From Leifsonia williamsii (GTDB taxonomy: Bacteria > Actinomycetota > Actinomycetes > Actinomycetales > Microbacteriaceae): a stretch of DNA of 64,000 bases. Numbering within the stretch: position 1 is the stretch's first letter; every line of letters starts with the position of its first letter. Positions 23,991-38,668 of the stretch are shown here, piece after piece. A model generated the notes under the pieces. The model saw nothing but the letters and a program-made list of their open reading frames with translations, was not told the DNA's origin and searched no databases. Position numbers and translations under genes: made by a program. Where the stretch lies: NCBI RefSeq assembly GCF_030433685.1, contig NZ_JAROCF010000001.1, positions 1,302,001 to 1,366,000 of the forward strand, written 5' to 3'.

Positions 23991-24755
23991 TCAGCGACCG
24001 GTCGGTGCCGCCTGCTGCGCGCTGAGCCACTGCTCGAACGTGGTCGGGAAGACCTCGGCGTCCGGCGCGGGGACCAGCTCGCGGTCGGTGAGGTGCGCAC
24101 CGAAGTAGCGGGCGTCGGGGTCGTCGACCACCGTGCGGCTGTCGCCGCGGGCGGCGAGGCCGCGGGTGATCAGCTCGGTGAGCCGGAACTCCTCCGGGCC
24201 GCTGACCTCGTGCACGCCGTTGACCGGCTCGCCGGCGGCCGCACGCGCGACGGCGGTCGAGACGTCCTCCGCCGCCATCGGCTTGATGAACACCGGGGCG
24301 AGGCGAACGGTGTCGCCGTCGGTGGCCGCGTCGGCGATCGACTTCACGAACTCGTAGAACTGGGTCGCGTGCACGATCGTGAACGGGATGCCCGACTCCG
24401 TGATCAGCGTCTCCTGCGCGACCTTGGCCCGCATGTAGCCGCTGTCGGTCATGCGCTCGGTGCCGACCACCGACAGGGCCACGTGATGCTTGACGCCCGC
24501 CTTCCTCTCGGCGGCGATCAGCGTGTTCGTGGCGGTCGTGAAGAAGTCCATCACCGCCTTGTCCTCGAACGACGGCGAGTTGGAGACGTCGACCACGACG
24601 TCCGCGCCGGCGAGGGCGGCATCCACACCCTCCCCGGTCAGCGTGTTCACGCCGGAGTTGGGGGAGGCGGCGACCGCTTCGTGCCCGTGCGCGTTCAGCT
24701 TCGCGACGACTTTCGAGCCGATCAGGCCGGTCCCTCCGATGACGACGATCTTCAT
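23991..24755 (-). CDS. NmrA/SDR-like NAD(P)-binding epimerase-type protein, copy A
   Basis: 254 residues of the atypical SDR group, beginning MKIVVIGGTGLIGSKVVAKL with the GGxGxxG dinucleotide motif. Later text includes PFTIVHATQFYEF. This is the oxidoreductase/epimerase class (the O and E of 'COE') that commonly neighbours ECF41 sigma genes. A close paralogue is transcribed divergently from 24929. GAGGAGAAG precedes the start. The minus-strand ECF41-type promoter at 24817-24843 lies about 60-90 bases upstream. The reaction is unknown; substrates may be quinones or carbonyl compounds. Confidence 0.88.
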   Translation of the reverse strand: MKIVVIGGTGLIGSKVVAKLNAHGHEAVAASPNSGVNTLTGEGVDAALAGADVVVDVSNSPSFEDKAVMDFFTTATNTLIAAERKAGVKHHVALSVVGTERMTDSGYMRAKVAQETLITESGIPFTIVHATQFYEFVKSIADAATDGDTVRLAPVFIKPMAAEDVSTAVARAAAGEPVNGVHEVSGPEEFRLTELITRGLAARGDSRTVVDDPDARYFGAHLTDRELVPAPDAEVFPTTFEQWLSAQQAAPTGR

Positions 24756-24816: not shown

Positions 24817-24843
24817 GACCGGACTCCGCCCACGGTTGTGACA
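24817..24843 (-). promoter_or_regulatory. ECF41-type promoter, leftward
   Basis: On the minus strand TGTCACA (24843-24837), 15 bases, CGGTC (24821-24817). The ECF41 consensus I recall is a TGTCACA -35 and a CGTC -10. The spacing is identical to the other two copies at 24853 and 26607. The epimerase copy A start is 62 bases downstream of the -10. Confidence 0.8.
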
Positions 24844-24852
24844 GGAGGTGCG

Positions 24853-24879
24853 TGTCACATTCCCGCCCCCTGCGCGGTC
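24853..24879 (+). promoter_or_regulatory. ECF41-type promoter, rightward
   Basis: TGTCACA (24853-24859), 15 bases, CGGTC (24875-24879). It drives epimerase copy B and, through it, the sigma gene itself, which implies positive feedback. It lies back to back with the leftward copy, the two -35 boxes being separated by nine bases. Confidence 0.82.
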
Positions 24880-24928
24880 GTAGTTGGTGACGCGGCGCGA
24901 ACGCGCGCGCGAAGAAACGGAGAAGAGC

Positions 24929-25690
24929 ATGAAGATCGTCGTCATCGGAGGGACCGGCCTGATCGGCCGCGGGGTGGTCGAGCTGCTGCGCGAGCGCGGG
25001 CACGAGGCGGTGGCGGCGTCGCCGTCGACCGGTGTCGACGCGGTCACCGGGCAGGGCCTCGCGGAGGCGCTCGCCGGCGCGGACGTCGTGGTCGACGTCC
25101 CCAACGCTCCCTCGTTCGAAGACGGCCCGGTGCTCGAGTTCTTCGAGCGCTCGACCGGCAACCTGGTGGAGGCCGAGAAGGCGGCGGGCGTCGGGCACCA
25201 TGTCGTCCTCTCCATCGTCGGTGCCGACCGCATGCCCGACATCGGCTACATGCGGGCGAAGGTCGCGCAGGAGCGGATCGTGGGCGAGAGCGGCATCCCC
25301 TTCACGATCGTGCGGGCGGCGCAGTTCTTCGAGTTCATCCCGGCGCTCGCCGACGGGGCCACGCAGGGCGACACCGCGACCCTGTCGGACGTGCTGATGC
25401 AGCCGATCGCAGCGACCGACGTCTCGGCGGCGCTCGCCGAGGTGGCCGTCGTGTCGCCGGCGAACGACGTGATCGAGCTCGCCGGCCCGGAGCCGCTGCG
25501 GCTCGACGACCTCGCGCGCCAGGTGCTGGCTGCGCGCGGCGACGCGCGCACGGTGCGGACCGACCCCGCGGCGGGGTACTTCGGCGGGACGGTGGACGAC
25601 ACCTCGCTGGTGCCGGGCAACGACCCACGGGTGACGGATCAGCGCTTCGGGGCGACGTCGTTCTCGCAGTGGCTGGAGGCCGGGCACTAG
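24929..25690 (+). CDS. NmrA/SDR-like NAD(P)-binding epimerase-type protein, copy B
   Basis: 253 residues, paralogous over its whole length to the divergent gene at 23991-24755 (both MKIVVIGGTGLIG, both ADVVVDV.N.PSFED, both GIPFTIV.A.QF). ATG 24929 follows GGAGAAG; the frame extends 15 codons upstream without support. The TAG stop is nine bases before the sigma-factor ATG, so the two are probably cotranscribed. The pair most likely arose by duplication and then acquired mirror-image copies of the same promoter. Confidence 0.88.
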   Translation: MKIVVIGGTGLIGRGVVELLRERGHEAVAASPSTGVDAVTGQGLAEALAGADVVVDVPNAPSFEDGPVLEFFERSTGNLVEAEKAAGVGHHVVLSIVGADRMPDIGYMRAKVAQERIVGESGIPFTIVRAAQFFEFIPALADGATQGDTATLSDVLMQPIAATDVSAALAEVAVVSPANDVIELAGPEPLRLDDLARQVLAARGDARTVRTDPAAGYFGGTVDDTSLVPGNDPRVTDQRFGATSFSQWLEAGH

Positions 25691-25699
25691 CATTCGATC

Positions 25700-26593
25700 A
25701 TGTCCATCGGGAGCCAGGCGGAGCGGGACCTCGACACGGCGGCGGAGACGTTCGCCGCCGTGCGGCCGCGCCTGTTCGGAATCGCCTACCGGATGCTCGG
25801 CACGGTGGCCGACGCCGAGGACCTCGTGCAGGAGACCTGGCTGCGCTGGCAGGCGTACGACCGGGCGAGCGTGCGCGAGCCGGCGGCGTTCCTCGCCACG
25901 ACCATCACCCGGCTGGCGATCAACCAGGCGCAGTCCGCCCGCGCCCGCCGCGAGACCTACATCGGGCCGTGGCTGCCCGAGCCGGTGGACACCAGCGCCG
26001 ACCCGTCGCTCGGGGCCGAGCGGGGGGAGGCGCTGGAGTTCGCCGTGCTCGTCCTCCTCGAGAAGCTGCCGCCGACCGAGCGCGCGGCGTACGTGTTGCG
26101 GGAGGCGTTCGACTACCCGTACGCGCAGATCGCGGACATCATCCAGGCGTCGGAGGCGTCGGCCCGGCAGCTCGTCAGCCGGGCCCGCAAGCACCTCACC
26201 GAGGAGCGGCACGTGCGCGAGGTGACCCACGAGGAGCAGCGGAGGATGCTCGGCGCGTTCCTCGAGGCGGCGCAGTCCGGCGACATGGCCGCGCTCGAGA
26301 GCCTGTTCACGGCCGACATCGTGAGCTACTCGGACGGCGGCGGCCTGGCCCGCGCCTCCCGCATCCCGGTGCGCACCCGCGAGGTCGTCGCCAAGTACGT
26401 GCACGCCTTCGCGGACCGCTTCTGGGTCGGCGAGGTGCGGATCGTGGAGGCGAACGGCGCTCCGGCGGCCGTGCTCGTGCGCGACGGCGCGATCGTCGCG
26501 TTCATCACGCTCGACGTCACCGCCGACGGCATCCGCCGCCTGCAGTGGGTGCTCAACCCGCAGAAGCTGGAGCGGCTGCCCCTGCCCGTGTGA
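25700..26593 (+). CDS. ECF41/SigJ-type sigma factor with SnoaL-like C-terminal domain
   Basis: 297 residues. Region 2 (RPRLFGIAYRMLGTVADAEDLVQETWLRW) and region 4 (LPPTERAAYVLREAFDYPYAQIADI) are clear. The family signatures are present: WLPEP in the linker (91-95), DGGG in the C-terminal domain (Asp212 onward; followed by Leu rather than the usual Lys) and NPxKL-like NPQKL (from Asn286). In ECF41 factors the C-terminal SnoaL-like domain acts in cis to control activity, and no classical anti-sigma factor is used; none is seen here. There is no Shine-Dalgarno sequence. TAGCAT overlaps the upstream stop six bases before ATG, so leaderless or coupled expression are both possible. It is likely autoregulated through the promoter at 24853. 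Confidence 0.93.
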   Translation: MSIGSQAERDLDTAAETFAAVRPRLFGIAYRMLGTVADAEDLVQETWLRWQAYDRASVREPAAFLATTITRLAINQAQSARARRETYIGPWLPEPVDTSADPSLGAERGEALEFAVLVLLEKLPPTERAAYVLREAFDYPYAQIADIIQASEASARQLVSRARKHLTEERHVREVTHEEQRRMLGAFLEAAQSGDMAALESLFTADIVSYSDGGGLARASRIPVRTREVVAKYVHAFADRFWVGEVRIVEANGAPAAVLVRDGAIVAFITLDVTADGIRRLQWVLNPQKLERLPLPV

Positions 26594-26606: not shown

Positions 26607-26633
26607 CGTCACAAACGGCGGCCCTGTCCGGTC
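26607..26633 (+). promoter_or_regulatory. ECF41-type promoter of the dehydrogenase/cytochrome b operon
   Basis: CGTCACA (26607-26613; one mismatch to TGTCACA), 15 bases, CGGTC (26629-26633). It begins 14 bases after the sigma-gene stop and about 45 bases before the dehydrogenase ATG, the same distance relation as at the other two copies. Confidence 0.75.
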
Positions 26634-26678: not shown

Positions 26679-28076
26679 ATGCGTCGCATCCTCGTGGTGG
26701 GCGGCGGCTACGCCGGGTTCTACACGGCCTGGGGCCTGGAGAAGCGGCTGAAGCCGGGAGAGGCCGAGATCACGGTCGTCGACCCGCGGCCCTACATGAC
26801 CTATCAGCCCTTCCTGCCGGAGGTCGCCGCCGGCTCGATCGAGGCACGGCACGCGGCCGTCTCGCTGCGCAGCCACCTCCGCCGCACGCGACTGGTGCAC
26901 GGCACCGTGACGCGCATCGAGCATGCGCGGCATGCCGCGACGGTCCAGCCGCCGGACGGCGAGCCGTTCGAGCTCGGCTACGACATCGTCGTGGTGACGG
27001 CGGGCGCTGTCACCCGCACCTTCCCGATCCCGGGCGTCACCGAACAGGCCATCGGCATGAAGCACGTGGAGGAGGCGATCGCCATCCGCGACCGGCTGCT
27101 CGACGCCTTCGACCGGGCGTCCCTGCTCCCGGCAGGGCCCGAGCGGTCGCGGCTGCTCACGGTCGCCTTCGTCGGCGGCGGCTTCTCGGGCGTCGAGGGG
27201 TTCGCCGAGCTGCTCTCGCTCGCGACGGCGCTGCTGCGCTCGTATCCCGAGCTGCGGTTCGACGACCTCTCCTTCCACCTCGTGGAGGCCCGCGACCGCA
27301 TCCTGCCCGAGGTCACCGACAAGCCGGGCGAGTGGGTCGTGCGGCACCTGGTCGAGCGCGGGGCGCGCATCCACCTCGGCGCCCAGCTGCTGTCGGCGGA
27401 GGACGGCCACATCGTGCTCTCGACCGGCGAGGAGTTCGACGCGCACACCATCGTGTGGACCGCCGGCAACGGCGCGAACCCCGTCGTCGCGAACAACACC
27501 GACCTGCCCGTCACGGCACGCGGCTCGGTGATCGTGCGAGCGGATCTGCGGGTCGGCACGGCCGACGCGATCGTCCCCGACGCGTGGGCGGCGGGCGACG
27601 ACGCGGCGGTCCCCGATCTCGCCTCCGCGGTGGAGGGCGCGATCACCGTCCCGAACGCCCAGCACGCCGTGCGGCAGGGCCGCCTCCTCGCGAAGAACAT
27701 CGCGGCGTCGATCCGCGGCGGCCGCGTCCGCGACTACGTGCACCACAGTCTCGGCGTCGTGGCGACGCTGGGGCTCGGCAAGGGCATCTTCGAGTGGCGC
27801 GGCATCGTGATCAAGGGATTCCCGGCCTGGGTGATGCATCGCGGCTACCACGTGCTCGCGATCCCGACCTGGGAGCGCAAGGTGCGGGTGGCGCTCGTCT
27901 GGGCCACCGCGCTGCTGTTCGGGCGCGACATCGTGTCGCTGCTGTCGGTGCAGCACCCGCGGCAGGCCTTCCTGCGAGGCGGCCGGGTGGAGGCGGAAGC
28001 AGCCACCACCGTGCCGCCCCGGCCCGCACCTGAGCCCGCCGCCGCGACCGCCGCCGCCGGGGCCGGGAGCCTCTGA
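26679..28076 (+). CDS. Type II NADH dehydrogenase-like FAD oxidoreductase
   Basis: 465 residues. The FAD motif GGGYAG is at 8-13 of MRRILVVGGGYAGFYTAW and the NAD motif GGGFSG begins near 166. WAAGDDAAVPD is the second FAD-contact motif of NDH-2 proteins, and a C-terminal hydrophobic/basic segment (VALVWATALLFGRDIVSL) resembles the membrane anchor. It should pass electrons from NAD(P)H to menaquinone without pumping. ATG 26679 is preferred over 26661 because GGGGAGG lies nine bases before it. The stop overlaps the cytochrome b start (TGATG), so the two are made together. Confidence 0.9.
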   Translation: MRRILVVGGGYAGFYTAWGLEKRLKPGEAEITVVDPRPYMTYQPFLPEVAAGSIEARHAAVSLRSHLRRTRLVHGTVTRIEHARHAATVQPPDGEPFELGYDIVVVTAGAVTRTFPIPGVTEQAIGMKHVEEAIAIRDRLLDAFDRASLLPAGPERSRLLTVAFVGGGFSGVEGFAELLSLATALLRSYPELRFDDLSFHLVEARDRILPEVTDKPGEWVVRHLVERGARIHLGAQLLSAEDGHIVLSTGEEFDAHTIVWTAGNGANPVVANNTDLPVTARGSVIVRADLRVGTADAIVPDAWAAGDDAAVPDLASAVEGAITVPNAQHAVRQGRLLAKNIAASIRGGRVRDYVHHSLGVVATLGLGKGIFEWRGIVIKGFPAWVMHRGYHVLAIPTWERKVRVALVWATALLFGRDIVSLLSVQHPRQAFLRGGRVEAEAATTVPPRPAPEPAAATAAAGAGSL

Positions 28077-29746
28077 TGCCCGTGCAACGGCGCCGCCGCC
28101 CATCCCTCACCGACCGCCTCGCCGGCCTCGCGAGCACGACCTCCGCGGGTCGGCGGGCGGGCGGCCTGCGCGCCTCGCTCGCCGCCCGCCGGGTGACGCT
28201 GCGCTGGTCGAACCTGTTCGGCGTGGTCGCGGCCGCGTGCGTCGCCGTGCTGTTCGTCACGGGCTTCGTGCTCATGTTCGTCTACGCGCCGACCAGCGAC
28301 CGGGTGGTCTACGACGGCCCGTACGCGCCGCTCGCCGGGGTGGAGATGTCGAAGGCGCTGCAGTCGACGCTCGCCATCTCGTTCGAGCTGCCGGGCGGCC
28401 TGCTGCTGCGGCAGGCGCATCACTGGGCCGCCCTGCTGCTGCCGGCGGCGCTGATGCTGCAGCTCGCGGTGTCGTTCTTCACGGGCGCGTTCCGCCGTCC
28501 CCGCCGGCTCTCCTGGGTGCTGCTGTTCGGCCTCCTGATCGTCGCCCTGGTCGGTGGCTGGAGCGGGTACGCGCTGCCCGACGACATGCTGTCGGGCACG
28601 GGTCTCCGCATCGTCGAGGGCATCGTGCTCGGCATCCCCGTGGTCGGCACCTGGCTGTCGTGGCTGCTGTTCGGCGGTGAGTTCCCCGGCCGCATCATCG
28701 AGCACCTGTACCCGATCCACATCGCGGTCGTGCCGGTGCTGCTCCTGGTGCTCTACGCGGCCCGGGCACGCCTCGCGTACCGGGAGCGCCCGCTGCGCTC
28801 CGCGGGCGAGGAGCCCTCGGTCGGCCTGCCGGTGTGGCCGCACGTCGCGCTCCGGGCGGGAGGCCTCCTGACGATCGTCGCCGGCGTCATCGTGCTCGTC
28901 TCCGCCACCGTGACGATCAGCCCGATCTGGCTGTACGGCCCCTCCTCGCCCGGCGACGCGTCCGCGGGCAGCCAGCCCGACTGGTACACCGGCTTCCTCG
29001 ACGGCGCCCTGCGGCTGGTGCCCCCGGGCTGGGAGGTGGAGTGGCTCGGCCGCACCTGGACCCTGGCGATCCTCGTGCCGCTGATCGTCGTCGGGCTGTT
29101 CCTCGCCGCCGTCGCCGTCTACCCGTTCATCGAGGAGTGGCTGAGCGGCGACACCGCCGAGCACCACCTCCTTGACCGGCCGCGCAACGCGCCCACCCGC
29201 ACCGGTCTCGGGGTCGCCGGCATCGTCTTCTACGGCGCGCTGTGGGGCGCCGGCAGCGCCGACCTGGTGGCCACGCACTTCCACCTCTCGGTGGAGGCTG
29301 TGGTGCACGCCTACCAGGCGGCCGTGCTGCTCGGACCGATCGTCGCCTTCGTGGTGACGCGGCGCGTCTGCCTCGCGCTGGAGCGCAAGGACCGCGACAT
29401 CCTGCTGCACGGCTACGAGACCGGCCGCATCGTGCGGCTGCCGGGCGGCGAGTACGTCGAGGTGCACGGCGCGGTGGAGGCGCACGAGCGTTATCGACTC
29501 GCCGGACCCGTGGAGGCGCACCCCTTCGAGGCTCGCCCCCGGCCGGACGGCCGGCTGCGGCTCGCCGACCGCCTCCGAGCACGGGCGTCGCGGTTCTTCT
29601 TCGAGGACCGCCTGACGCCGCTGCCCGGCCCGGGCGCGGAGGCGACCGGCGCGCTGCCGGGCGGTGACGACGACGTCGACGATGGGCGGATGGATGACAG
29701 CACGCGGGAGCGGATGCCGGCGCAGGAGGCGGCGGTGGCACGATGA
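28076..29746 (+). CDS. QcrB-like cytochrome b lacking one pair of haem ligands
   Basis: 556 residues, full length for actinobacterial QcrB and colinear with it: QAHHWAALLL helix B, GYALPDDMLSGTGLR, FPGRIIEHLYPIHIAVVP helix D, ISPIWLYGP...SAGSQPDWY at the quinol site and the HGYETGRIVRLPGGEYVEVH tail. In QcrB each of helices B and D carries two His 14 residues apart. Here the first of each pair is present (His115, His215) but the second is Gln129 on helix B and Ala229 on helix D, so only one b haem should be bound. No Rieske protein or cytochrome c subunit is nearby, so this is not the main bc1 operon. The start overlaps the dehydrogenase stop. Partnership with the NDH-2-like protein is inferred from coupling. 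Confidence 0.88.
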   Translation: MPVQRRRRPSLTDRLAGLASTTSAGRRAGGLRASLAARRVTLRWSNLFGVVAAACVAVLFVTGFVLMFVYAPTSDRVVYDGPYAPLAGVEMSKALQSTLAISFELPGGLLLRQAHHWAALLLPAALMLQLAVSFFTGAFRRPRRLSWVLLFGLLIVALVGGWSGYALPDDMLSGTGLRIVEGIVLGIPVVGTWLSWLLFGGEFPGRIIEHLYPIHIAVVPVLLLVLYAARARLAYRERPLRSAGEEPSVGLPVWPHVALRAGGLLTIVAGVIVLVSATVTISPIWLYGPSSPGDASAGSQPDWYTGFLDGALRLVPPGWEVEWLGRTWTLAILVPLIVVGLFLAAVAVYPFIEEWLSGDTAEHHLLDRPRNAPTRTGLGVAGIVFYGALWGAGSADLVATHFHLSVEAVVHAYQAAVLLGPIVAFVVTRRVCLALERKDRDILLHGYETGRIVRLPGGEYVEVHGAVEAHERYRLAGPVEAHPFEARPRPDGRLRLADRLRARASRFFFEDRLTPLPGPGAEATGALPGGDDDVDDGRMDDSTRERMPAQEAAVAR

Positions 29747-30098
29747 GCTCGCGCTGGCGCGCCTCGTCGCCGGGTTCCGCGACGCCTACGCGATGGAGGA
29801 TCTCGCCGCGCTCGCGCGCATCCTCGGGCCGTGGGTGCGGATCGCCGTCGACGCCGGCGAGCAGGCGACGGCTCCGCCGCCGGCCCTCGGCGTCATCGCG
29901 GTCATCGGCCTCCTCCACCAGGTGCTCGGACCGCCCGGCGACCTGACCCTGGAGGTGCGCTCGGTGAATGGCGGCCCGGGTCTCCTCGTAACACGGTGCG
30001 GAGACCCGGTCGCCGTCGTCGTGCTGCGCGGACGGGTCGGCGCGGTGACGGACCTGTGGGTGGTCGCGGACCCCGGGAAGCTGCTGCGCTGGCGGTGA
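29694..30098 (+). CDS. Free-standing SnoaL-like protein related to the ECF41 C-terminal domain
   Basis: 134 residues from ATG 29694 (ATG 29664 is a longer alternative); either start overlaps the end of the cytochrome b gene. After a short Arg-rich opening the body (LARLVAGFRDAYAMEDLAALARILGPWVRIAVDAG ... VTDLWVVADPGKLLRWR) follows the same order as the C-terminal domain of the sigma factor at 25700-26593 (FLEAAQSGDMAALESLF ... LQWVLNPQKL), including the terminal (N/D)PxKL. No sigma region 2 or 4 is attached. It could be a ligand-binding or regulatory partner of the sigma factor or an enzyme of the same fold. The overlap places it in the dehydrogenase/cytochrome b operon. Confidence 0.75.
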   Translation: MTARGSGCRRRRRRWHDELALARLVAGFRDAYAMEDLAALARILGPWVRIAVDAGEQATAPPPALGVIAVIGLLHQVLGPPGDLTLEVRSVNGGPGLLVTRCGDPVAVVVLRGRVGAVTDLWVVADPGKLLRWR

Positions 30099-30203: not shown

Positions 30204-31205
30204 ATGCTGGGCTTCAACGAAGAGGAATTCCTGGAGCAGGCGCGGAGCACCGTGGCGCTCCGGCCGCAGATCGAGCAGCTGGTGGAGCGCATCCAGGGCG
30301 GCAGCTGGAAGAACATCTACTTCATCGGCGCGGGCGGCACGTACGCCGCCGCGCTGCCGTACGAGCGGTTCTTCCAGACCCGCTCGGCGTTCCCGGTGCG
30401 CGCCGTGATCGGCAAGGAGTTCATCCTCGCGCCGGACCCGCAGTTCGGCCCCGACTCGGTCGCGATCTTCGCCTCCGTCTCGGGAACCACGGAGGACATC
30501 CTCGAATGCGTCGAGTTCGCACGCGAGAAGGGCGCGCTGACCATCGGCTTCACCGGTTACCCGGAGAGCCCGATCGCCACCGCGGTCGACGAGGTGCTGC
30601 TGTCGGCGCCCAAGGCGTGGCCGTTCGACGTGCAGTTCCTGCTGTTCGGGGCCGCGTTCCTCGCCGCGCGGGGCGAGTTCGAGGGCTATGATCGGTTGGT
30701 CCAGGACCTGCAGTACGTCCCGGAGGCGCTGGTCGCCGTCACCAAGCAGGCCGATGCGGCGGGGGAGGCCTTCGCCGAGAAGCACGCCGAGACCGACTAC
30801 CACTTCCTCGTGGGGTCGGGGAACCTGTGGGGCTTCACGTACCTGTATTCGATGTGCATCCTCGAGGAGATGCAGTGGCTGCGCACGACGCGCGTCCACG
30901 CGGCGGAGTTCTTCCACGGCTCGCTCGAGCTCATCGAGAAGGACACCAGCCTCCTGCTCTTCATGGGCGAGGACGAGACCCGGCCGCTCATGGACCGCGT
31001 GCTCGGCTTCGCGACGGAATACAGCGACGACGTCACGGTGATCGACACCAAGGACTACGCGCTGCCGGGCGTGAGCGACGAGTTCCGCAGCCTGCTCGCC
31101 CCGATGATCGCCGACGCCGTCGTCGACCGGTTCAGCAAGCACCTCGCCCGGGTGCGCGACCACTCGCTCGACCTGCGCCGCTACTACCGCGTCGTCGCGT
31201 ACTGA
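30204..31205 (+). CDS. frlB: SIS-domain fructosamine-6-phosphate deglycase (FrlB-like)
   Basis: 333 residues with two sugar-isomerase (SIS) domains: IYFIGAGGTYAAALPYERFF near the start with the SVSGTTED phosphate loop, and YHFLVGSGNLWGFTYLYSMCILEEMQWL in the second half, followed by the HAAEFFHGSLELIEKD stretch that holds the catalytic Glu/His in FrlB. FrlB splits fructoselysine-6-phosphate into glucose-6-phosphate and lysine. GGAGGGAG precedes ATG. The kinase that would make its substrate follows after ten bases. The exact amino-acid part of the substrate is unknown. Confidence 0.82.
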   Translation: MLGFNEEEFLEQARSTVALRPQIEQLVERIQGGSWKNIYFIGAGGTYAAALPYERFFQTRSAFPVRAVIGKEFILAPDPQFGPDSVAIFASVSGTTEDILECVEFAREKGALTIGFTGYPESPIATAVDEVLLSAPKAWPFDVQFLLFGAAFLAARGEFEGYDRLVQDLQYVPEALVAVTKQADAAGEAFAEKHAETDYHFLVGSGNLWGFTYLYSMCILEEMQWLRTTRVHAAEFFHGSLELIEKDTSLLLFMGEDETRPLMDRVLGFATEYSDDVTVIDTKDYALPGVSDEFRSLLAPMIADAVVDRFSKHLARVRDHSLDLRRYYRVVAY

Positions 31206-31215
31206 TCGAGGCGCG

Positions 31216-32139
31216 ATGAGCAACGTGCGCGTCCTCGGCTTCGGGGACAACATCGTCGACCGGTTCGTCGACCGCGGGGTGGAGTATCCGGGCGGGAACG
31301 CGGTGAACGTCGCGGTCTTCGCCCGGCGGCTCGGCGCCGAGGCCGGCTACCTGGGGGTCTTCGGCGACGATGAGCGCGGCGCGTTCGTCCGGGGCGCCAT
31401 CGAGGAGTGCGGGGTCGACACCTCGCTCTCCGCGGTGCGCCCCGGGCCGAACGGCGTGACCGAGATCGAGACCGTCGACGGCGAGCGGCGCTTCCTGGGC
31501 TGGAACCAGGGCGGCGTCACGCTCAGCGACCCGATGCGGCTGGGCGAGGAGGAGCTGCGCTACGCGGCCGGCTTCTCGCTCATCCACTCCAGCGCCTATT
31601 CGGCCTCGGTGGAGGAGCTGCCGAAGCTCGCGCCCACGCGGGCCCTGCGCTCCTACGACTTCTCGTCGGAGCCCGAGTTCCGCACCTCCGAGTACCTCGA
31701 CGCGGTCGGACCCTGGATCGACCTGGCCCTCGTGTCGTGCGGCGACCTCAGCCGCAGCGAGGTCTGGGCGGAGCTGCGCCGCGTGGCAGGGCACGGTCCG
31801 CGGCTGGTGCTGGGAACCCGCGGACAGGCGGGCGCGATGCTGTTCGACGGCGAGGCGTACTACTACTCCGAGGCCGCGCCGGTGCCTGGGCCGTTCCTCG
31901 ACACGATGGGCTGCGGCGACGCCTATCTCGCGGCGTTCGTGGTTGAATTGCTCCGTTCCGGCTGGCGCAGGAACGCCCGGCCCGGGGGCGTCGCGCTCCA
32001 CCGGTCGATGCGGCAGGCGGCGCAGTTCGCGGCCCTCCAGTGCACGGTCGATGGAGCCTTCGGCCACGGGCGTCCCATCGAGGGCGCAGTGGAGGTCGGG
32101 AGTCCGATCGGAGGAGTTGCGGCCGGCGACGCCGGGTGA
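31216..32139 (+). CDS. frlD: PfkB-family kinase, FrlD-like (fructosamine 6-kinase)
   Basis: 307 residues of the ribokinase fold. The N-terminus (VRVLGFGDNIVDRFVDRGVEYPGGNAVNVAV) matches fructoselysine 6-kinases. The anion-hole/catalytic motif is DTMGCGDAY with catalytic Asp235, Cys replacing the usual Ala. Adjacent to the deglycase gene it should phosphorylate the imported Amadori compound at C6. A GAGG site precedes ATG. The C-terminal 25 residues beyond the fold are Gly/Ala-rich. The LacI regulator follows after 35 bases. Confidence 0.82.
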   Translation: MSNVRVLGFGDNIVDRFVDRGVEYPGGNAVNVAVFARRLGAEAGYLGVFGDDERGAFVRGAIEECGVDTSLSAVRPGPNGVTEIETVDGERRFLGWNQGGVTLSDPMRLGEEELRYAAGFSLIHSSAYSASVEELPKLAPTRALRSYDFSSEPEFRTSEYLDAVGPWIDLALVSCGDLSRSEVWAELRRVAGHGPRLVLGTRGQAGAMLFDGEAYYYSEAAPVPGPFLDTMGCGDAYLAAFVVELLRSGWRRNARPGGVALHRSMRQAAQFAALQCTVDGAFGHGRPIEGAVEVGSPIGGVAAGDAG

Positions 32140-32174
32140 TCCGGGCGTCGCCCCGCGCGGAGGAAGGGGTGGCG

Positions 32175-33266
32175 ATGTCCACGGAACGCGAACGGACGCC
32201 GTCGCCGACGATCTCCGAGGTGGCGGAGGCGGCCGGCGTCGGCCGCGCTACCGTGGCGCGCACCCTGGGCGGCTACGGCTCCGTGAGCCCGAAGACCAGG
32301 GACAGGATCCTCGCCGCGGCCAAGGAGCTCGGCTACCGCCCCAACTCGATCGCCCGCAGCATGACGACGGGCGAGACGCGGACGCTCGGCGTCGTGCTCG
32401 CCGATGTCGGCAACCCCTTCTTCGCGGGCGTGCTGCGCGGGATCAGCGACGCGGCGCGCGAGGCCGGATACGACGTGATCGTGCTCAGCACGGACGAGAG
32501 CGTCGAGCAGGAGGCCGCGGCGATCGAGGTGCTCGTCGACAAGCAGGTCGACGGCATCGCGCTCGCGCCCGCGGCCGGCCGGCGCGAGACGCTGCCGCAC
32601 CTCGACGTCGTCGCCAAGCGGGGCATCCCGCTGGTGCTGCTCGACCGGCTCGTCGACACCGTCGCGGCCGACGCGGTCGTCATCAACAACCGCGAGGCGT
32701 CGCGGGAGGCGGTGGAGGCGCTCATCGCGCAGGGTCACCGGCGCATCGGTTTCGTCTGGGGCCCGGTGACGAACGAGCCGGCGGCCGACGCCGACGACCT
32801 CCGGCGCATCCTCGACCATGCCCTGTGGAGCGACGGCGAGCGTCTGCTCGGCTACCTCGACGCGCTGGAGCGCGCCGGTATCCCGTTCGACACCTCCCTC
32901 GTCACCCATGTGCTCAAGAACGAGCAGCAGGCCACCAGGGCGGTGCTCGGGATGCTCGCCCTCTCGGACGCCCCGACCGCGATCTTCGCGACCGAGACCG
33001 ACGCCCTCACCGGAGCCTTGCGCGCCATGCGGCAGCGCGGGCTGCTCTGCCCCGAGGACATCTCGCTGATCGGGTTCGACGACAGCTCGTGGGCGAGCGT
33101 GATGACGCCGCCGATGTCGGTGGTGGCGCAGCCGATGCACCGGCTCGGCGTGCTGACGGCGGAGTGCCTGCTCGCCCGGGTCGCCGGCAGCGACGCGCCG
33201 GTCGCGACGCACGTGCTCGAGGCGTCGTTCATCGCGCGCGACTCGGTCGCCCCGGCCGCGCGCTGA
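32175..33266 (+). CDS. LacI-family repressor of the fructosamine locus
   Basis: 363 residues. The helix-turn-helix (PTISEVAEAAGVGRATVARTLGGYGSVS) and hinge (LGYRPNSIARSM) are followed by a periplasmic-binding-protein-like effector domain. ATG 32175 has AGGAAGGGG upstream; an in-frame upstream extension overlaps the kinase. Two matching operators flank it functionally: before the frlB-like gene (30161) and before the binding lipoprotein (33319), where the site covers the -35 box, so repression released by sugar is expected. Confidence 0.92.
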   Translation: MSTERERTPSPTISEVAEAAGVGRATVARTLGGYGSVSPKTRDRILAAAKELGYRPNSIARSMTTGETRTLGVVLADVGNPFFAGVLRGISDAAREAGYDVIVLSTDESVEQEAAAIEVLVDKQVDGIALAPAAGRRETLPHLDVVAKRGIPLVLLDRLVDTVAADAVVINNREASREAVEALIAQGHRRIGFVWGPVTNEPAADADDLRRILDHALWSDGERLLGYLDALERAGIPFDTSLVTHVLKNEQQATRAVLGMLALSDAPTAIFATETDALTGALRAMRQRGLLCPEDISLIGFDDSSWASVMTPPMSVVAQPMHRLGVLTAECLLARVAGSDAPVATHVLEASFIARDSVAPAAR

Positions 33267-33318
33267 CCCGTCCGGCTTCGCCGTCTGAACGTCGGACGGC
33301 GATGTCCTGATACCGATG

Positions 33319-33347
33319 TTGATACCGGTACCAATTTCCCGTATAGT
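33319..33347 (+). promoter_or_regulatory. Promoter with overlapping LacI operator
   Basis: TTGATA (33319-33324), 17 bases, TATAGT (33342-33347) is a good SigA promoter. The operator TTGATACCGGTACCAA (33319-33334) covers its -35 and differs from the core of the 30161 palindrome by one base. A further half-site resemblance (ctgatacc, 33307-33314) lies just upstream. Confidence 0.85.
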
Positions 33348-33441
33348 CGTCGCAACCGGCGCCCGAGACAGCCGGAGAAGCGATCCAAGGACGGGTCAGC
33401 GGTGAACGATCTCCGCCCGACCCGGATGACGGGAGAAGAGC

Positions 33442-34758
33442 GTGAAGAAGACCAGAACCATCGCCACAGCCGCGGCGGGCGTCCTCGCCCTGGCGCTGAC
33501 CGCGTGCTCCTCCGGTGGAGGCAGCAGTGCCGACATCGCCGCGAAGCCCGACTTCTCCGGCAGCCTGAGCATCCTCACCGCCGGTGCCGGCGACCCGATG
33601 AGCTCCTACTTCGAGGATCTGGTCGCCGACTACAAGAAGCAGCACCCCGACGTGAAGATCACGCTGGCGCAGGAGACCGACGACAACGCCATCAAGGACA
33701 AGGAGAAGGTCCTGATCGGCTCGCAGTCGCTGCCCGACATCTACTTCAGCTATGCGGGCAACTGGGGCGAGAACTTCGCCGAGAACGGCCTCGCCGCCGA
33801 CCTCAGCTCGGTGATCGCGCCCGGCACCGCCTGGGGCGACACGTTCGGCACGGGCTCGGTCGACGCGTTCAAGTACGGCGGCAAGTACTACGGAGTCCCG
33901 CTCTACAACGACGCCAAGTTCATGGGCTACAACACGAAGATCTTCTCCGACCTCGGCCTCGACGTCCCGAAGACGCTCGAGCAGCTGATCTCGGACTGCT
34001 CCACGATCAAGGCGGCCGGCTACGTGCCGATCGCGTTCGGCAACAAGGACGGCTGGCCCGGCCTGCACTACCTCGGCCAGCTGTTCGCGTACGACGTCCC
34101 GCGCGACGCCCTCGACGACGACCTGCTCCCCAAGACGGCGAAGTACACCGACCAGGGCTACGTGGAGGGCATGAAGCAGTTCCAGCAGCTCGTCACCGCG
34201 TGCACGGGCGACGGCTCCAACTCGAACGGCGTCACCTACACCACCGCGCAGCAGCAGCAGGCGACCGGCAAGGCGGCCATGTACTACCAGGAGCTGATCG
34301 AGTTCGACTCGGTCAACACGGACGACAGCCAGCTCCACAAGGACGGCTTCGGCATCTTCCCGCTGCCGGCTCCCGAGGCCGCCGCGGGCGACGCGAAGAC
34401 GCTCGAGGCCGCCCCCGAGGGCTACATGATCAATCAGCGCAGCAAGAACGCCGCCCTGGCCCTGGACTTCCTGAAGTTCGTCACGAACGAGAAGAACGCC
34501 ACGACGCTCTCGGCTCCGCCGTACGGCCAGCCGAGTGCCGTCAAGGACGTCGTCACCGAGGACATCGCGACCCCCGCCGTCGTGGAGGGCACCAAACTCG
34601 TCAACGACGCGCCTTCGACCGTCGTCTGGCTCGACATGGCGAACGTGCCGTCGGTGGCCGACGCCTGGGTCGCCGCCTCGGAGGGCCTCGTCTCCGGCAG
34701 CCTCAGCCCCGAGGACGCCCTGGCGTCGGTGCGTCAGGCCTCCGAGAAGGCGAAATGA
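33442..34758 (+). CDS. Sugar/fructosamine-binding lipoprotein of ABC importer
   Basis: 438 residues from GTG 33442, which follows GGAGAAGAG. The lipoprotein signal ends LTAC (Cys22). The mature sequence (GSLSILTAGAGDPMSSYFEDLVADYKKQHPDVKI) is a family 1 solute-binding protein. It is the first gene of a three-gene importer under the LacI-controlled promoter at 33319. Its stop overlaps the next ATG (ATGA). An Amadori compound is the likely ligand from context, though the CUT1 family mostly binds oligosaccharides. Confidence 0.9.
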   Translation: MKKTRTIATAAAGVLALALTACSSGGGSSADIAAKPDFSGSLSILTAGAGDPMSSYFEDLVADYKKQHPDVKITLAQETDDNAIKDKEKVLIGSQSLPDIYFSYAGNWGENFAENGLAADLSSVIAPGTAWGDTFGTGSVDAFKYGGKYYGVPLYNDAKFMGYNTKIFSDLGLDVPKTLEQLISDCSTIKAAGYVPIAFGNKDGWPGLHYLGQLFAYDVPRDALDDDLLPKTAKYTDQGYVEGMKQFQQLVTACTGDGSNSNGVTYTTAQQQQATGKAAMYYQELIEFDSVNTDDSQLHKDGFGIFPLPAPEAAAGDAKTLEAAPEGYMINQRSKNAALALDFLKFVTNEKNATTLSAPPYGQPSAVKDVVTEDIATPAVVEGTKLVNDAPSTVVWLDMANVPSVADAWVAASEGLVSGSLSPEDALASVRQASEKAK

Positions 34759-35744
34759 CCACCACCCAGGCGCCCCAGGCGCCCGTGCGGACCCGCCTCG
34801 AGCGGGGCCGCACGGCGCCCGCGGCGGGCGCGCCGGGCACCGGGGCGCCCGGGGCGGCACGGCGCCGCGGCGCCGCTTGGCGCGGGCTGGTCTGGCTGCT
34901 TCCGGCGCTCGCCGTGCTGGCCGTGTTCGTCTACTGGCCGCTGATCCAGAACATCGTGTTCAGCTTCCTGAAGTGGAACATCTACAGCGGCGAGCAGACC
35001 TTCGTCAGCGTCGACAACTACTCGGCGCTCGCGGAGGACCCGGTCTTCTGGAGGGCCCTCGGCAACAACGCCTGGTACGCGGTGCTCTCGATCGTGTTCC
35101 AGGTGCTCGGCGCGCTGGTCCTCGCCGCGATCGTGGAGAGCGTGCGCAGCGACCGCTGGCGCAAGGCGTTCCGCGCGATCTACTTCATCCCGTCCGCCAT
35201 TTCGCTCACCGTCGCGGGCCTCCTCTTCTACTTCGTGTACCAGCCGCAGACGGGCCTCCTGAACGTCTTCCTCGACGGCATCGGGCTGGGGCAGTTCTCC
35301 CAGGCCTGGCTCGGGCACGAGAGCACGGCGATCTTCGCGATCATCGCGATGAGCCAGTGGCAGGGCTTCGGCTACAGCGTGCTGCTGTTCTCGGTCGCGC
35401 TGCAGCGCATCCCGCAGGAGCTGTACGAGGCGGCCCAGCTCGACGGGGTCGGGCCGGTGCGCCGCTTCTTCACCGTCTCCGTGCCGCTCGTGCGGGAGAT
35501 GACCGGGCTCATGATGATCGTCACGATCTCGGGAGCGTTCCAGGTCTTCAACGAGGTCATGGTGATGACCTCGGGCGGACCCAACAACTCCAGCCAGGTG
35601 CTGGGGACCTGGCTCTATCACGCCGGCTTCGTGACCAACGACTTCGGCTCGGCGGCGGCCATCGGCGTGGCGATCTTCGTCATCACGCTGCTGCTCGCGG
35701 TCGCGCAGCTCGCCTACTCGAGGAAGCGGAGAGTGGAATGGTGA
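34755..35744 (+). CDS. ABC transporter permease (MalF type) of the fructosamine locus
   Basis: 329 residues. ATG 34755 overlaps the lipoprotein stop; a much longer frame upstream runs across that gene and is not coding. A Pro/Ala/Arg-rich cytoplasmic head precedes about six helices, and the EAA loop is YEAAQLDGVGPVRRFFTVSVP. It overlaps the second permease by seven bases. No ATPase gene is adjacent. Confidence 0.92.
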   Translation: MTTTQAPQAPVRTRLERGRTAPAAGAPGTGAPGAARRRGAAWRGLVWLLPALAVLAVFVYWPLIQNIVFSFLKWNIYSGEQTFVSVDNYSALAEDPVFWRALGNNAWYAVLSIVFQVLGALVLAAIVESVRSDRWRKAFRAIYFIPSAISLTVAGLLFYFVYQPQTGLLNVFLDGIGLGQFSQAWLGHESTAIFAIIAMSQWQGFGYSVLLFSVALQRIPQELYEAAQLDGVGPVRRFFTVSVPLVREMTGLMMIVTISGAFQVFNEVMVMTSGGPNNSSQVLGTWLYHAGFVTNDFGSAAAIGVAIFVITLLLAVAQLAYSRKRRVEW

Positions 35745-36574
35745 TCCTCGCCCGGCTCGGACGCGGTGTCCGTTCGGCGGCCATGTGGGCGCTGCTGATC
35801 GTCCTCGCGATCGTGGTCCTGTACCCGCTCGTCTGGATGATCATGAACGCGCTCAAGACGAACGCGGAGCTCTTCACCGACCCGTTCGCGCTGCCCGCGA
35901 GCCCGCTGTGGCAGAACTTCGCCACGGCATGGCGGCAGGGCGTCGGCGACTTCGTGCTCACGAGCGTCTCGCTGACCGTCCTGGCGACCCTGATCACAGA
36001 GCTGATCAGCGCGTGGGCGGCGTACGGGCTGACCCGGGTGAGCATCCCGCTCAACCGCACCTTCACCGTCATCGTGCTCGCCGGCCTGATGCTGGCGCCG
36101 ACGGTCGCGCTCATCCCGCTGGTGAAGATGTTCCAGGGCATGGGGCTCTACGACTCGTTCCTCGGCCTGCTGATCCTCTACACGGCGTTCCGCATCCCGT
36201 TCACCGTGTTCCTCATGCGGGCGTACATGCTCGATCTGCCCCGGGAGGTGGACGAGGCGGCCTCGATCGACGGCGCCTCCCGTGCCGCCACCTTCTGGCG
36301 GATCATCCTGCCGATGAGCATGCCGATCATCATCACGACGATCGTGCTGAACGTCCTGCAGAACTGGAACGAGTACCTGTTCGCGATGGTGTTCACCTCC
36401 GGGACCGGCGTGCAGACCCTCCCGGTCGGGCTGGCCGATCTGATGTCGAAGAACGGCACGCAGTACCCGGTCGTCTTCGCGGGCATGGTGATGGCCGCTG
36501 CCCCGATGGTGATCCTGTTCTTCGTCTGCCAGCGCTACTTCGTTCGCGGGCTCGCCGGCGGGGTCGGCAAATGA
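35738..36574 (+). CDS. ABC transporter permease (MalG type) of the fructosamine locus
   Basis: 278 residues from ATG 35738, inside the end of the first permease. About six helices are visible and the EAA loop is DEAASIDGASRAATFWRIILP. It completes the importer with 33442 and 34755. The MFS gene follows after seven bases. Confidence 0.92.
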   Translation: MVILARLGRGVRSAAMWALLIVLAIVVLYPLVWMIMNALKTNAELFTDPFALPASPLWQNFATAWRQGVGDFVLTSVSLTVLATLITELISAWAAYGLTRVSIPLNRTFTVIVLAGLMLAPTVALIPLVKMFQGMGLYDSFLGLLILYTAFRIPFTVFLMRAYMLDLPREVDEAASIDGASRAATFWRIILPMSMPIIITTIVLNVLQNWNEYLFAMVFTSGTGVQTLPVGLADLMSKNGTQYPVVFAGMVMAAAPMVILFFVCQRYFVRGLAGGVGK

Positions 36575-37769: not shown

Positions 37770-37894
37770 ACCGCTCGACCGAACGGGGGCTCGGGATTCC
37801 TCGCCGGGCGCTGCCCCGTCACAGCGGCGGGGCGCGCGCGGTCAATGCTGTGAGCGCGTCGCATCGGGCGGCGCCCATCCGAGAGGACATCACC

Positions 37895-38668
37895 ATGACC
37901 GAACAGCTCCCCACCGTCGTGCTCGTGCACGGCGCCTTCGCCGAGTCGGCCAGCTGGAACGGCGTCATCGAGCGGCTGCGCGCCCGCTCCGTTCCGGCCG
38001 TCGCCGTCGCGAACCCGCTGCGCAGCCTCACCGGCGATGCCGGTTACGTGCGCGACGTCATCGCGAGCATCGACGGGCCGGTCGTGCTCGTCGGCCACTC
38101 CTACGGCGGGCTCGTCATCAGCGAGGCGGGCGCAGCGAACGACGCGGTCGCCGCCCTCGTCTACGTCAACGCGTTCGTGCCCGAGCACGGCAAGACGGCC
38201 TTCGACCTGTCGACCGAGTTCCCCGGCAGCACGCTCCCCGACGCGCTGGCGCCGCGGACCCTCGCCGACGGCTCGGTCGAGCTCACCATCCGGCCAGACG
38301 TGTTCCGGCACCAGTTCGTGGCCGATGTCTCCGAGGCGGAGGCCGCCCTCATGGCCGCGACGCAGCGCCCGGTGACGCAGGCCGCGCTGACCGACCCGCT
38401 GCCGACCAGCACGCCCGCGTGGACGACCACGCCGTCGTGGTTCGTCTTCGGCGACCAGGACCTCAACATCCCCGTCGCCGAGCACCGCGCGGGCGCCGAG
38501 CGCGCAGGAGCGAACGCGCGCGGCGTGCGCGAGGTGGCGGGCGGCTCGCACGCGCTGAGCGTCTCACGACCCGACGTCGTGGCCGAGGTGATCCTTGAGG
38601 CGGTCGAGGCCGTCGCCGCGGGCGCCGGCGCCGGCGTCACCACCGCAGCGTTCCAGACCGGGGCCTGA
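37895..38668 (+). CDS. Alpha/beta hydrolase (salicylate-esterase-like)
   Basis: 257 residues. TVVLVHGAFAESASWNGVIERL is the oxyanion segment, GHSYGG the nucleophile elbow with Ser69, and GGSHALSVSRP contains the late His. This short form with HGAFAESASW is common in actinobacteria and resembles plant-type methyl-salicylate esterases; substrate unknown. ATG 37895 follows GAGAGGAC. A second, unrelated hydrolase follows after ten bases, so the two are likely cotranscribed. Confidence 0.87.
   Translation: MTEQLPTVVLVHGAFAESASWNGVIERLRARSVPAVAVANPLRSLTGDAGYVRDVIASIDGPVVLVGHSYGGLVISEAGAANDAVAALVYVNAFVPEHGKTAFDLSTEFPGSTLPDALAPRTLADGSVELTIRPDVFRHQFVADVSEAEAALMAATQRPVTQAALTDPLPTSTPAWTTTPSWFVFGDQDLNIPVAEHRAGAERAGANARGVREVAGGSHALSVSRPDVVAEVILEAVEAVAAGAGAGVTTAAFQTGA

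Follow-up and report, generated by a model that had tools for sequence, protein, structure and literature searches.

The 64,000-nucleotide stretch of the Leifsonia williamsii genome analysed here (assembly GCF_030433685.1, contig NZ_JAROCF010000001.1, positions 1,302,001 to 1,366,000 of the forward strand; hereafter, the window) carries, downstream of genes for an ECF41-type (SigJ-like) sigma factor and an NDH-2-like NAD(P)H:quinone oxidoreductase, an intact frame for a paralogue of QcrB, the cytochrome b of the actinobacterial bcc-aa3 supercomplex (Table 1). Its product is colinear with an actinobacterial QcrB (7q21_B) over residues 28-466 (375.5 bits), as a preliminary description of the locus had proposed from the letters alone, and it scores as full-length QcrB with NF050120 (525.6 bits, cut-off 500); since this model accepts the protein, automatic annotation would likely label the gene an ordinary cytochrome b. 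An AlphaFold model matches QcrB in overall fold, and this match alone is used here because the mean predicted local distance difference test score (pLDDT) is 70.3 and much of the cd and ef loops falls below 50. The genome has one other QcrB, 54% identical, with all four haem histidines and encoded in a qcrC-qcrA-qcrB operon. Joint encoding with qcrC and qcrA, usual for the QcrB of a bcc complex, is not found for the gene described here: the QcrA and QcrC sequences of this genome, used as tblastn queries (E up to 1e-3), had no match anywhere in the window or in the stretches, 3.9 to 18 kb long, that were fetched for 46 related loci, in agreement with the preliminary description, which had seen no Rieske or cytochrome c gene nearby.

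The pair of haems has been described as a highly conserved motif of cytochromes bc (excerpts of PMC9720722), and in the bcc complex of Mycobacterium tuberculosis haem bL lies near the periplasm and haem bH near the cytoplasm (excerpts of PMC8616580). In the alignment, the window protein keeps the bL residues R112, H115, G164 and H215 and the PDWY motif (301-304); the bH residues are replaced by Q129, V132, L150 and R230, and the Glu of the QN site by V50. Thus, in place of the four His residues of a two-haem QcrB, the protein has the bL pair and, at the bH positions, Gln129 and Arg230. The assignment of the two His pairs to bL and bH follows the topology of bc1, which we take to hold for this protein; read in this way, the alignment indicates that the missing haem is bH, the cytoplasmic-side one. 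The retention of His115 and His215 and the replacement on helix B by Gln129 had been correctly anticipated, but the second lost ligand had been placed at Ala229. Actinobacterial QcrB has its two helix D histidines at a spacing of 15 residues (H211 and H226 in M. smegmatis, 6adq_B), so that the second ligand position falls on Arg230 and Ala229 lies one residue early; the alignment likewise rules out Ala229, with Arg230 aligned instead, and there is no His at either position.

To place these residues among relatives, sequences were gathered from three sources: 60 near genomes (the window's own included), a contig search, from which the best 80 of 185 relatives were kept, and the genomes that carry 20 of these loci; part of the QcrB matches from the first and third sources was fetched. 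In all, 125 sequences were aligned; the counts exclude L001 and L003-L020 (longer stretches of the same genomes were used instead), L050, L054, L055, L056, L061 and L076, eight further duplicates (L139, L149, L153, L155-L159) and two fragments (L082, L084). In a quick tree the window protein falls in a group of 47 (SH-aLRT 100), from Leifsonia, Agromyces, Microbacterium, Nocardioides, Microlunatus, Herbiconiux and other genera, hereafter the one-haem group. It is compared with 37 reference QcrBs, a set defined by exclusion that includes L103 and extra Streptomyces copies (L150, L151, L152, L154). A second, more careful tree was built from 64 chosen rows after seven trait columns had been masked; its 28 one-haem rows make up one side of a branch supported at 100/100, and are a clade only if the root lies elsewhere; they do not belong to the group of orphan QcrBs from Streptomyces (see below).

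Gln129 and Arg230 are nearly invariant in the one-haem group, and the reference Arg three residues after the helix B position and the reference Gly of helix III have been replaced in all its members (Table 1). From bc1 structures, we take this Arg to be a partner of the bH propionate, and this Gly presumably packs on bH. All 47 members retain the two bL ligands, the Arg of bL and its glycines on helices I and III, together with each of the four residues of the PDWY (PEWY) motif of the QP site. The QN-site Glu (Glu49 in M. tuberculosis), present in 37/37 references, is Val in 38, Ile in five and Ala in four members; among the other QN residues (M. tuberculosis numbering, PMC8616580), Phe39 could not be mapped and Leu225 and Trp236 vary in the references too. 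The QN-site residues of a bcc-complex QcrB are therefore not those found here. Compared with the QcrB of actinobacterial bcc-aa3 supercomplexes (6adq, 7q21, 7e1v), the window protein shares the colinear sequence, the fold, the bL ligands and the PDWY region, but has neither of the bH ligands, nor the Arg of the bH pocket, the helix III Gly, the QN-site Glu or adjacent qcrA and qcrC genes. One member, from Herbiconiux (L081, 7001-8464), has His at the helix B position, yet Thr, Leu and Arg at the remaining bH positions, and may be a reversal or a relic.

The remodelling differs between the two halves of the membrane domain. For positions at least 95% conserved in the reference QcrBs, and scored as kept when at least 90% conserved in the 47 members, 15 of 23 are kept in the outer half of transmembrane helices I-IV and 6 of 21 in the inner half (Fisher P 0.019), while 4 of 23 and 11 of 21, respectively, are almost wholly lost (Fisher P 0.025); the sites are not independent, so both P values are descriptive. 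By a hand count, within loop limits that we set, the three periplasmic loops keep 39 of 47 invariants and the cytoplasmic de loop one of 10. Newly fixed residues are present in both halves (for example, L122, L150, W162, S163 and L308). The ratio of nonsynonymous to synonymous substitution rates (dN/dS, NG86) was 0.145-0.28 for ten pairs of one-haem genes and 0.03-0.10 for five pairs of reference qcrB, all 15 pairs being chosen ones; some frames include up to 45 upstream residues, which would inflate the one-haem values. The one-haem gene is constrained, but more loosely than housekeeping qcrB. From these comparisons, this conserved QcrB copy of soil actinobacteria appears to have lost bH and the adjoining quinone site under selection, with the outer half kept. 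The earlier proposal of a selected conversion to a one-haem cytochrome b, as opposed to decay, thus gains support from the joint, clade-wide loss of the bH residues and from purifying selection, and the homologues, where scattered changes typical of a pseudogene had been the thing to look for, share one pattern, with Gln129 in 46 and Arg230 in 45 of the 47.

The one-haem type was found in 15 of 27 other genomes of the genus sample, in addition to the window's own, and in 3 of 9 genomes from other genera of the family within the near-genome set. Each of the 16 genomes of the genus sample that carry it (the window's own among them) has a second QcrB, 52-54% identical to the one-haem protein. Matches with at least 57% identity and more than 600 bits occur in 17 of the 299 genomes of the family sample, a count that leaves weaker second matches aside and for which the ligands were read in the fetched subset of the 17. 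An exact DNA pattern scan of the phylum gave 2 of 396 genomes, the window's own among them, and understates the spread because no mismatch is allowed. Two genomes have unusual arrangements: one with the one-haem type also has two tandem QcrB-like genes (G033:C1:1308637-1311975), and in Naasia aerilata the second QcrB, present beside the one-haem copy, shows up as a pair of overlapping matches in different open frames (G079:C1:2988196-2989760), possibly a frameshift or an assembly error.

Loss at the bH end is not confined to the one-haem group. Among 41 orphan QcrBs from Streptomyces, 31 keep all four His residues and 10 have lost one bH ligand, on helix D in nine (Tyr in six, Arg in two, Ala in one) and on helix B in one, as against none of the 37 references (Fisher P 0.001, which ignores kinship). 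At least six changes of the helix D His fall on the 64-row tree, counting that of the one-haem clade. Judging from these sequences, the bH end seems freer to go after a QcrB leaves its operon. The ten orphans concerned (L087, L091, L092, L095, L097, L102, L105, L108, L124 and L125) keep the bH Arg and are possible intermediate states. QcrB2 (SCO7120) and QcrB3 (SCO7236) of S. coelicolor likewise lie outside the qcr operon and may belong to the set of 41. The one-haem group is separate in the tree from the Streptomyces orphans sampled; an ECF41-like motif occurs in members of both, as described next.

The putative promoters around the window gene fit the ECF41 type by sequence match, with GGTC for CGTC at -10. 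An initial scan of the window for the ECF41 motif, with CGTC and a variable gap, found none (1.05 expected). The pattern GTCACA-N16-GGTC, picked after inspection of the intergenic DNA, occurs four times in the window as against 0.24 expected (0/100 shuffles as high), three of the four sites having been seen when the pattern was chosen. A slightly stricter GTCACA/GGTC form has seven occurrences in the whole genome, four of them in the window, and none for the reversed control; a looser form has many matches inside genes and, in the Streptomyces loci, 279 matches where shuffles give 40.8. A comparison across loci, with CGTC or GGTC allowed and single-base shuffles of the same segments as control, is a cleaner test than the window count: between -450 and +90 of the gene start, the strict motif is present for 13/47 one-haem genes, 37/41 Streptomyces orphans and 1/33 reference qcrB genes (33 of the 37 being used), where 0.06, 0.06 and 0.03, respectively, are expected by chance. 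The sole reference gene with the motif is locus L150, an extra Streptomyces copy. Within 4 kb upstream on the same strand, a count without its own control, the motif is found at 15 further one-haem loci (28/47 in all). Thus, two separate groups of orphan QcrB seem to share a type of regulator. The window has in common with the ECF41 systems described by Wecke and co-authors a SigJ-type factor, NmrA-like and Pyr_redox neighbours and a promoter of the TGTCACA-N16-CGTC type, the -10 element being CGTC there and GGTC here (Wecke 2012, excerpts of PMC3426412). The targets named in those excerpts are a carboxymuconolactone decarboxylase, an oxidoreductase or an epimerase, and the word 'cytochrome' is absent from the main text of that paper (PMC3426412). 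An ECF41-like promoter ahead of cytochrome b genes is a new finding.

Table 1. Features of the Leifsonia williamsii window and residues of the one-haem QcrB paralogue discussed in the text (positions are those of the window)
Feature	Position	Strand	Basis or remark
Second NmrA-like gene, downstream of the divergent promoter	23991..24755	-	Named by similarity to the first NmrA-like gene
Divergent ECF41-like promoter	24817..24842	-	Pattern scan
ECF41-like promoter, 5' of the epimerase-like and sigma factor genes	24854..24879	+	Pattern scan
NmrA/NAD(P)-binding epimerase-like gene	24884..25690	+	Similarity; likely real start ATG 24929
ECF41-type (SigJ-like) sigma factor	25700..26593	+	TIGR02957, 339.5 bits (cut-off 323.25)
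ECF41-like promoter GTCACA-N16-GGTC, 5' of NDH-2/cytochrome b	26608..26633	+	Pattern scan
NDH-2-like NAD(P)H:quinone oxidoreductase, 471 aa	26661..28076	+	Similarity; 1-base overlap with the cytochrome gene
One-haem QcrB paralogue, 556 aa	28076..29746	+	Intact 556-codon frame
Codon of Gln129, helix B bH-ligand position	28460..28462	+	Q in 46/47 clade members; H in 37/37 reference QcrBs
Codon of Val132, reference Arg, three residues after the helix B position	28469..28471	+	V27, T12, A5, S3 of 47; R in 37/37 references
Codon of Leu150, reference helix III Gly	28523..28525	+	L in 47/47; G in 37/37 references
Codon of Arg230, helix D bH-ligand position	28763..28765	+	R 45, W 1, L 1 of 47; H in 37/37 references; Ala229 is the preceding codon
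Stand-alone frame that resembles SigJ-type sigma factors in their C-terminal part and overlaps the 3' end of the cytochrome gene	29664..30098	+	NF007214, E 1.3e-9, 37.6 bits, far below the cut-off of 271
Fourth ECF41-like promoter, 5' of hydrolase-like gene 37850-38668	37818-37843		Pattern scan

The NDH-2-like gene and the cytochrome gene overlap by the A of the NDH-2 stop codon (TGA), which doubles as the first base of the cytochrome b ATG, and they lie behind an ECF41-like promoter sequence. A housekeeping-type NDH-2 encoded elsewhere in the genome is 59-60% identical to the window copy, and the latter carries the two Rossmann glycine motifs as well as the quinone-site stretch seen in the housekeeping enzyme. 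An NDH-2 with a lost quinone motif is ruled out, the AQHAVR stretch being identical in the housekeeping copy. Within the one-haem group, however, NDH-2 is directly upstream in 17 of 47 loci (a few contigs stop too early to judge); among these 17, the L034 copy is split by a frameshift and those of L080 and L083 reach only 60-61% identity. The 30 loci with no NDH-2 in view have Gln in 29 and Arg in 29, and the 17 with NDH-2 have Gln in 17 and Arg in 16; haem loss is therefore independent of NDH-2, and a tie between the two is ruled out. Of the 60 near genomes, the window's own among them, 11 encode an NDH-2 of at least 69% identity, and all 11 have a one-haem gene as well, while a 65% identical NDH-2 lies on a contig without a QcrB match (G049). 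A relative of NDH-2 also lies within the fetched stretch of 12/41 Streptomyces orphan loci. The association of NDH-2 with the one-haem gene is real but optional. At L042, an 18-residue match to the end of NDH-2 just 5' of the cytochrome gene looks like a deletion scar; with the frameshift in L034, it suggests that NDH-2 may be on the way out in some lineages. The coupling to NDH-2 seen in the preliminary description therefore holds for the gene arrangement in the window but not throughout the clade, in which the Gln and Arg are conserved irrespective of this neighbour.

Genes that recur beside the one-haem genes, among those identified, encode a sigma factor, NmrA-like proteins, NDH-2, hydrolases and one small protein with no Pfam match. 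The model for a SnoaL-like C-terminal domain (PF12680) gives the window sigma factor 20.9 bits, below the cut-off of 27. Relatives of the SigJ-like frame that overlaps the end of the cytochrome gene lie downstream on the same strand in 14/47 loci, the window's included. The hydrolase-like gene behind the fourth promoter clusters with alpha/beta hydrolases (the relative scanned being one in L035), and members of this cluster lie near 10 one-haem and 17 Streptomyces orphan loci. The region 30204-36574, with a SIS-domain gene followed, as judged by eye, by sugar kinase, LacI-type regulator and ABC transporter frames, is probably a separate sugar-uptake operon.

From the residue pattern, its conservation, the signs of selection and the promoter sequences, we infer partners and a function. 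In the reading that we favour, to which we assign a probability of roughly 0.4, a QcrB duplicate has specialised into a bL-only cytochrome b, with the QP half kept and much of the bH/QN half dismantled, that joins QcrA and QcrC under ECF41 control. The sigma factor would switch the protein on, sometimes with an extra, non-pumping NDH-2, and the protein would join the housekeeping QcrA and QcrC as a homodimer or beside a normal QcrB. Menaquinol would be oxidised at QP, with bL reduced and the Rieske head faced, and no cross-membrane step from bL to bH would follow; in a mixed dimer, an electron on bL could still exit through the bL and bH of the partner. With bH and QN missing, no route is evident within the protein from QP to the cytoplasmic side, and so no Q-cycle; on sequence grounds, the protein should not be able to drive the transmembrane electron loop by which energy is normally saved. 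The outcome would be a respiratory branch that saves less energy and is not restrained by the membrane potential. It is more tentative that the protein forms a Q-cycle-free, potential-insensitive module for menaquinol oxidation which, with the non-pumping NDH-2, makes up an ECF41-switched branch of low coupling, or else an asymmetric bcc dimer with a single bH exit. We consider partnership with QcrA and QcrC most likely, and there are two precedents: the orphan QcrB3 of S. coelicolor co-purifies with parts of bcc-aa3 (excerpts of PMC7931247), and engineered dimers of Rhodobacter capsulatus in which only one side lacks bH still turn over by bL-bL transfer (excerpts of PMC4330944). The H212N mutant of R. 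capsulatus cytochrome bc1 likewise has bL without bH, as a single-residue change made in the laboratory, whereas that in the one-haem group is natural, conserved and involves several residues (excerpts of PMC4330944).

Several observations weigh against this reading. No Rieske or cytochrome c gene lies in the fetched stretches, so that the partners are assumed, and the QcrB3 precedent comes from the literature only, the Streptomyces orphans sampled being grouped apart from the one-haem clade. In R. capsulatus, the symmetric bH knock-out lacks the main antimycin-sensitive phase of cytochrome c reduction and has no Qo-Qi connection, and no complex was obtained from the symmetric fused form (excerpts of PMC4330944); a homodimer of the window protein may therefore work poorly. 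Loss on the inner side is not uniform, since the bH Gly of helix I is still Gly in 46/47 members, the cytoplasmic fg loop keeps 8/14 invariants at 90% or more (hand count, within limits that we set) and six of the 21 inner-half invariants are kept; four of the 23 outer-half ones are almost wholly lost. Finally, 19/47 one-haem loci have no strict ECF41-like motif, two of the 19 having less than 1.5 kb of upstream sequence.

It is unlikely, though the best placed of the alternatives, that the protein works alone outside bcc, as a QP/bL protein giving single menaquinol electrons to a periplasmic acceptor or as a redox sensor of the pool for the ECF41 circuit. The orphan position of the gene, with no Rieske or cytochrome c gene in the stretches fetched, and the promoter linkage to the sigma factor would suit such a role, and the newly fixed W162, S163, L308 and L150 point to a changed job. 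Against it, the periplasmic loops, some residues of which face the Rieske head in bc1 structures, are largely kept, and the recurring neighbours identified include no evident electron acceptor. We consider it quite unlikely that the protein is a damper, inserted into the bcc dimer to slow or halt Q-cycle turnover while catalysing nothing productive itself: the retained outer half and fold, the partly dismantled inner half and the sigma-factor regulation agree with this, but bL ligands and a PDWY motif kept in 47/47 suggest that quinol chemistry is still selected.

Direct electron transfer between NDH-2 and the cytochrome, the route put forward in the preliminary description, perhaps by way of a new cofactor that occupies the former bH pocket close to Gln129 and Arg230, is improbable. 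The one-base overlap of the genes, the NDH-2 neighbours in one-haem and Streptomyces loci, the strong conservation of the Gln and Arg and the co-occurrence in all 11 near genomes would each be expected of it. However, the loci without an adjacent NDH-2 keep the Gln and Arg just as well, the AQHAVR stretch does not differ from that of the housekeeping enzyme, the NDH-2 of G049 is found on a contig without QcrB, and the haem and quinone site that were lost are the centres within reach of a cytoplasmic NDH-2, which makes a link through the menaquinone pool the more likely one. That bH is still bound, by Gln or Arg, is very improbable: an engineered bc1 with His changed to Lys at a bH ligand retains the haem (excerpts of PMC4807273) and the helix I Gly is kept, but the residue found is not Lys and the pocket Arg and helix III Gly are lost as well in 47/47. 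A decaying pseudogene, to which the dN/dS values above those of reference qcrB might point, is ruled out by the open frames, by ratios well below 1 and by new residues invariant across genera.

Returning to the bL-only cytochrome b that we favour, no earlier description of a natural bH-less QcrB was found in open-access titles and the beginnings of abstracts, among the matches listed, subscription papers being outside the scope of the search; nor did searches of the open-access literature list a paper on ECF41 together with qcrB, or on qcrB with Leifsonia. By its sequence, the protein would be a new variant of a known one, with an unexpected regulatory link. To our knowledge, little is known of the physiological role of ECF41 sigma factors, which, if the reading is correct, would gain a respiratory target. 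A conserved natural form without bH would, if true, also be a ready-made test of bL, of bL-bL transfer and of the QP site without a Q-cycle.

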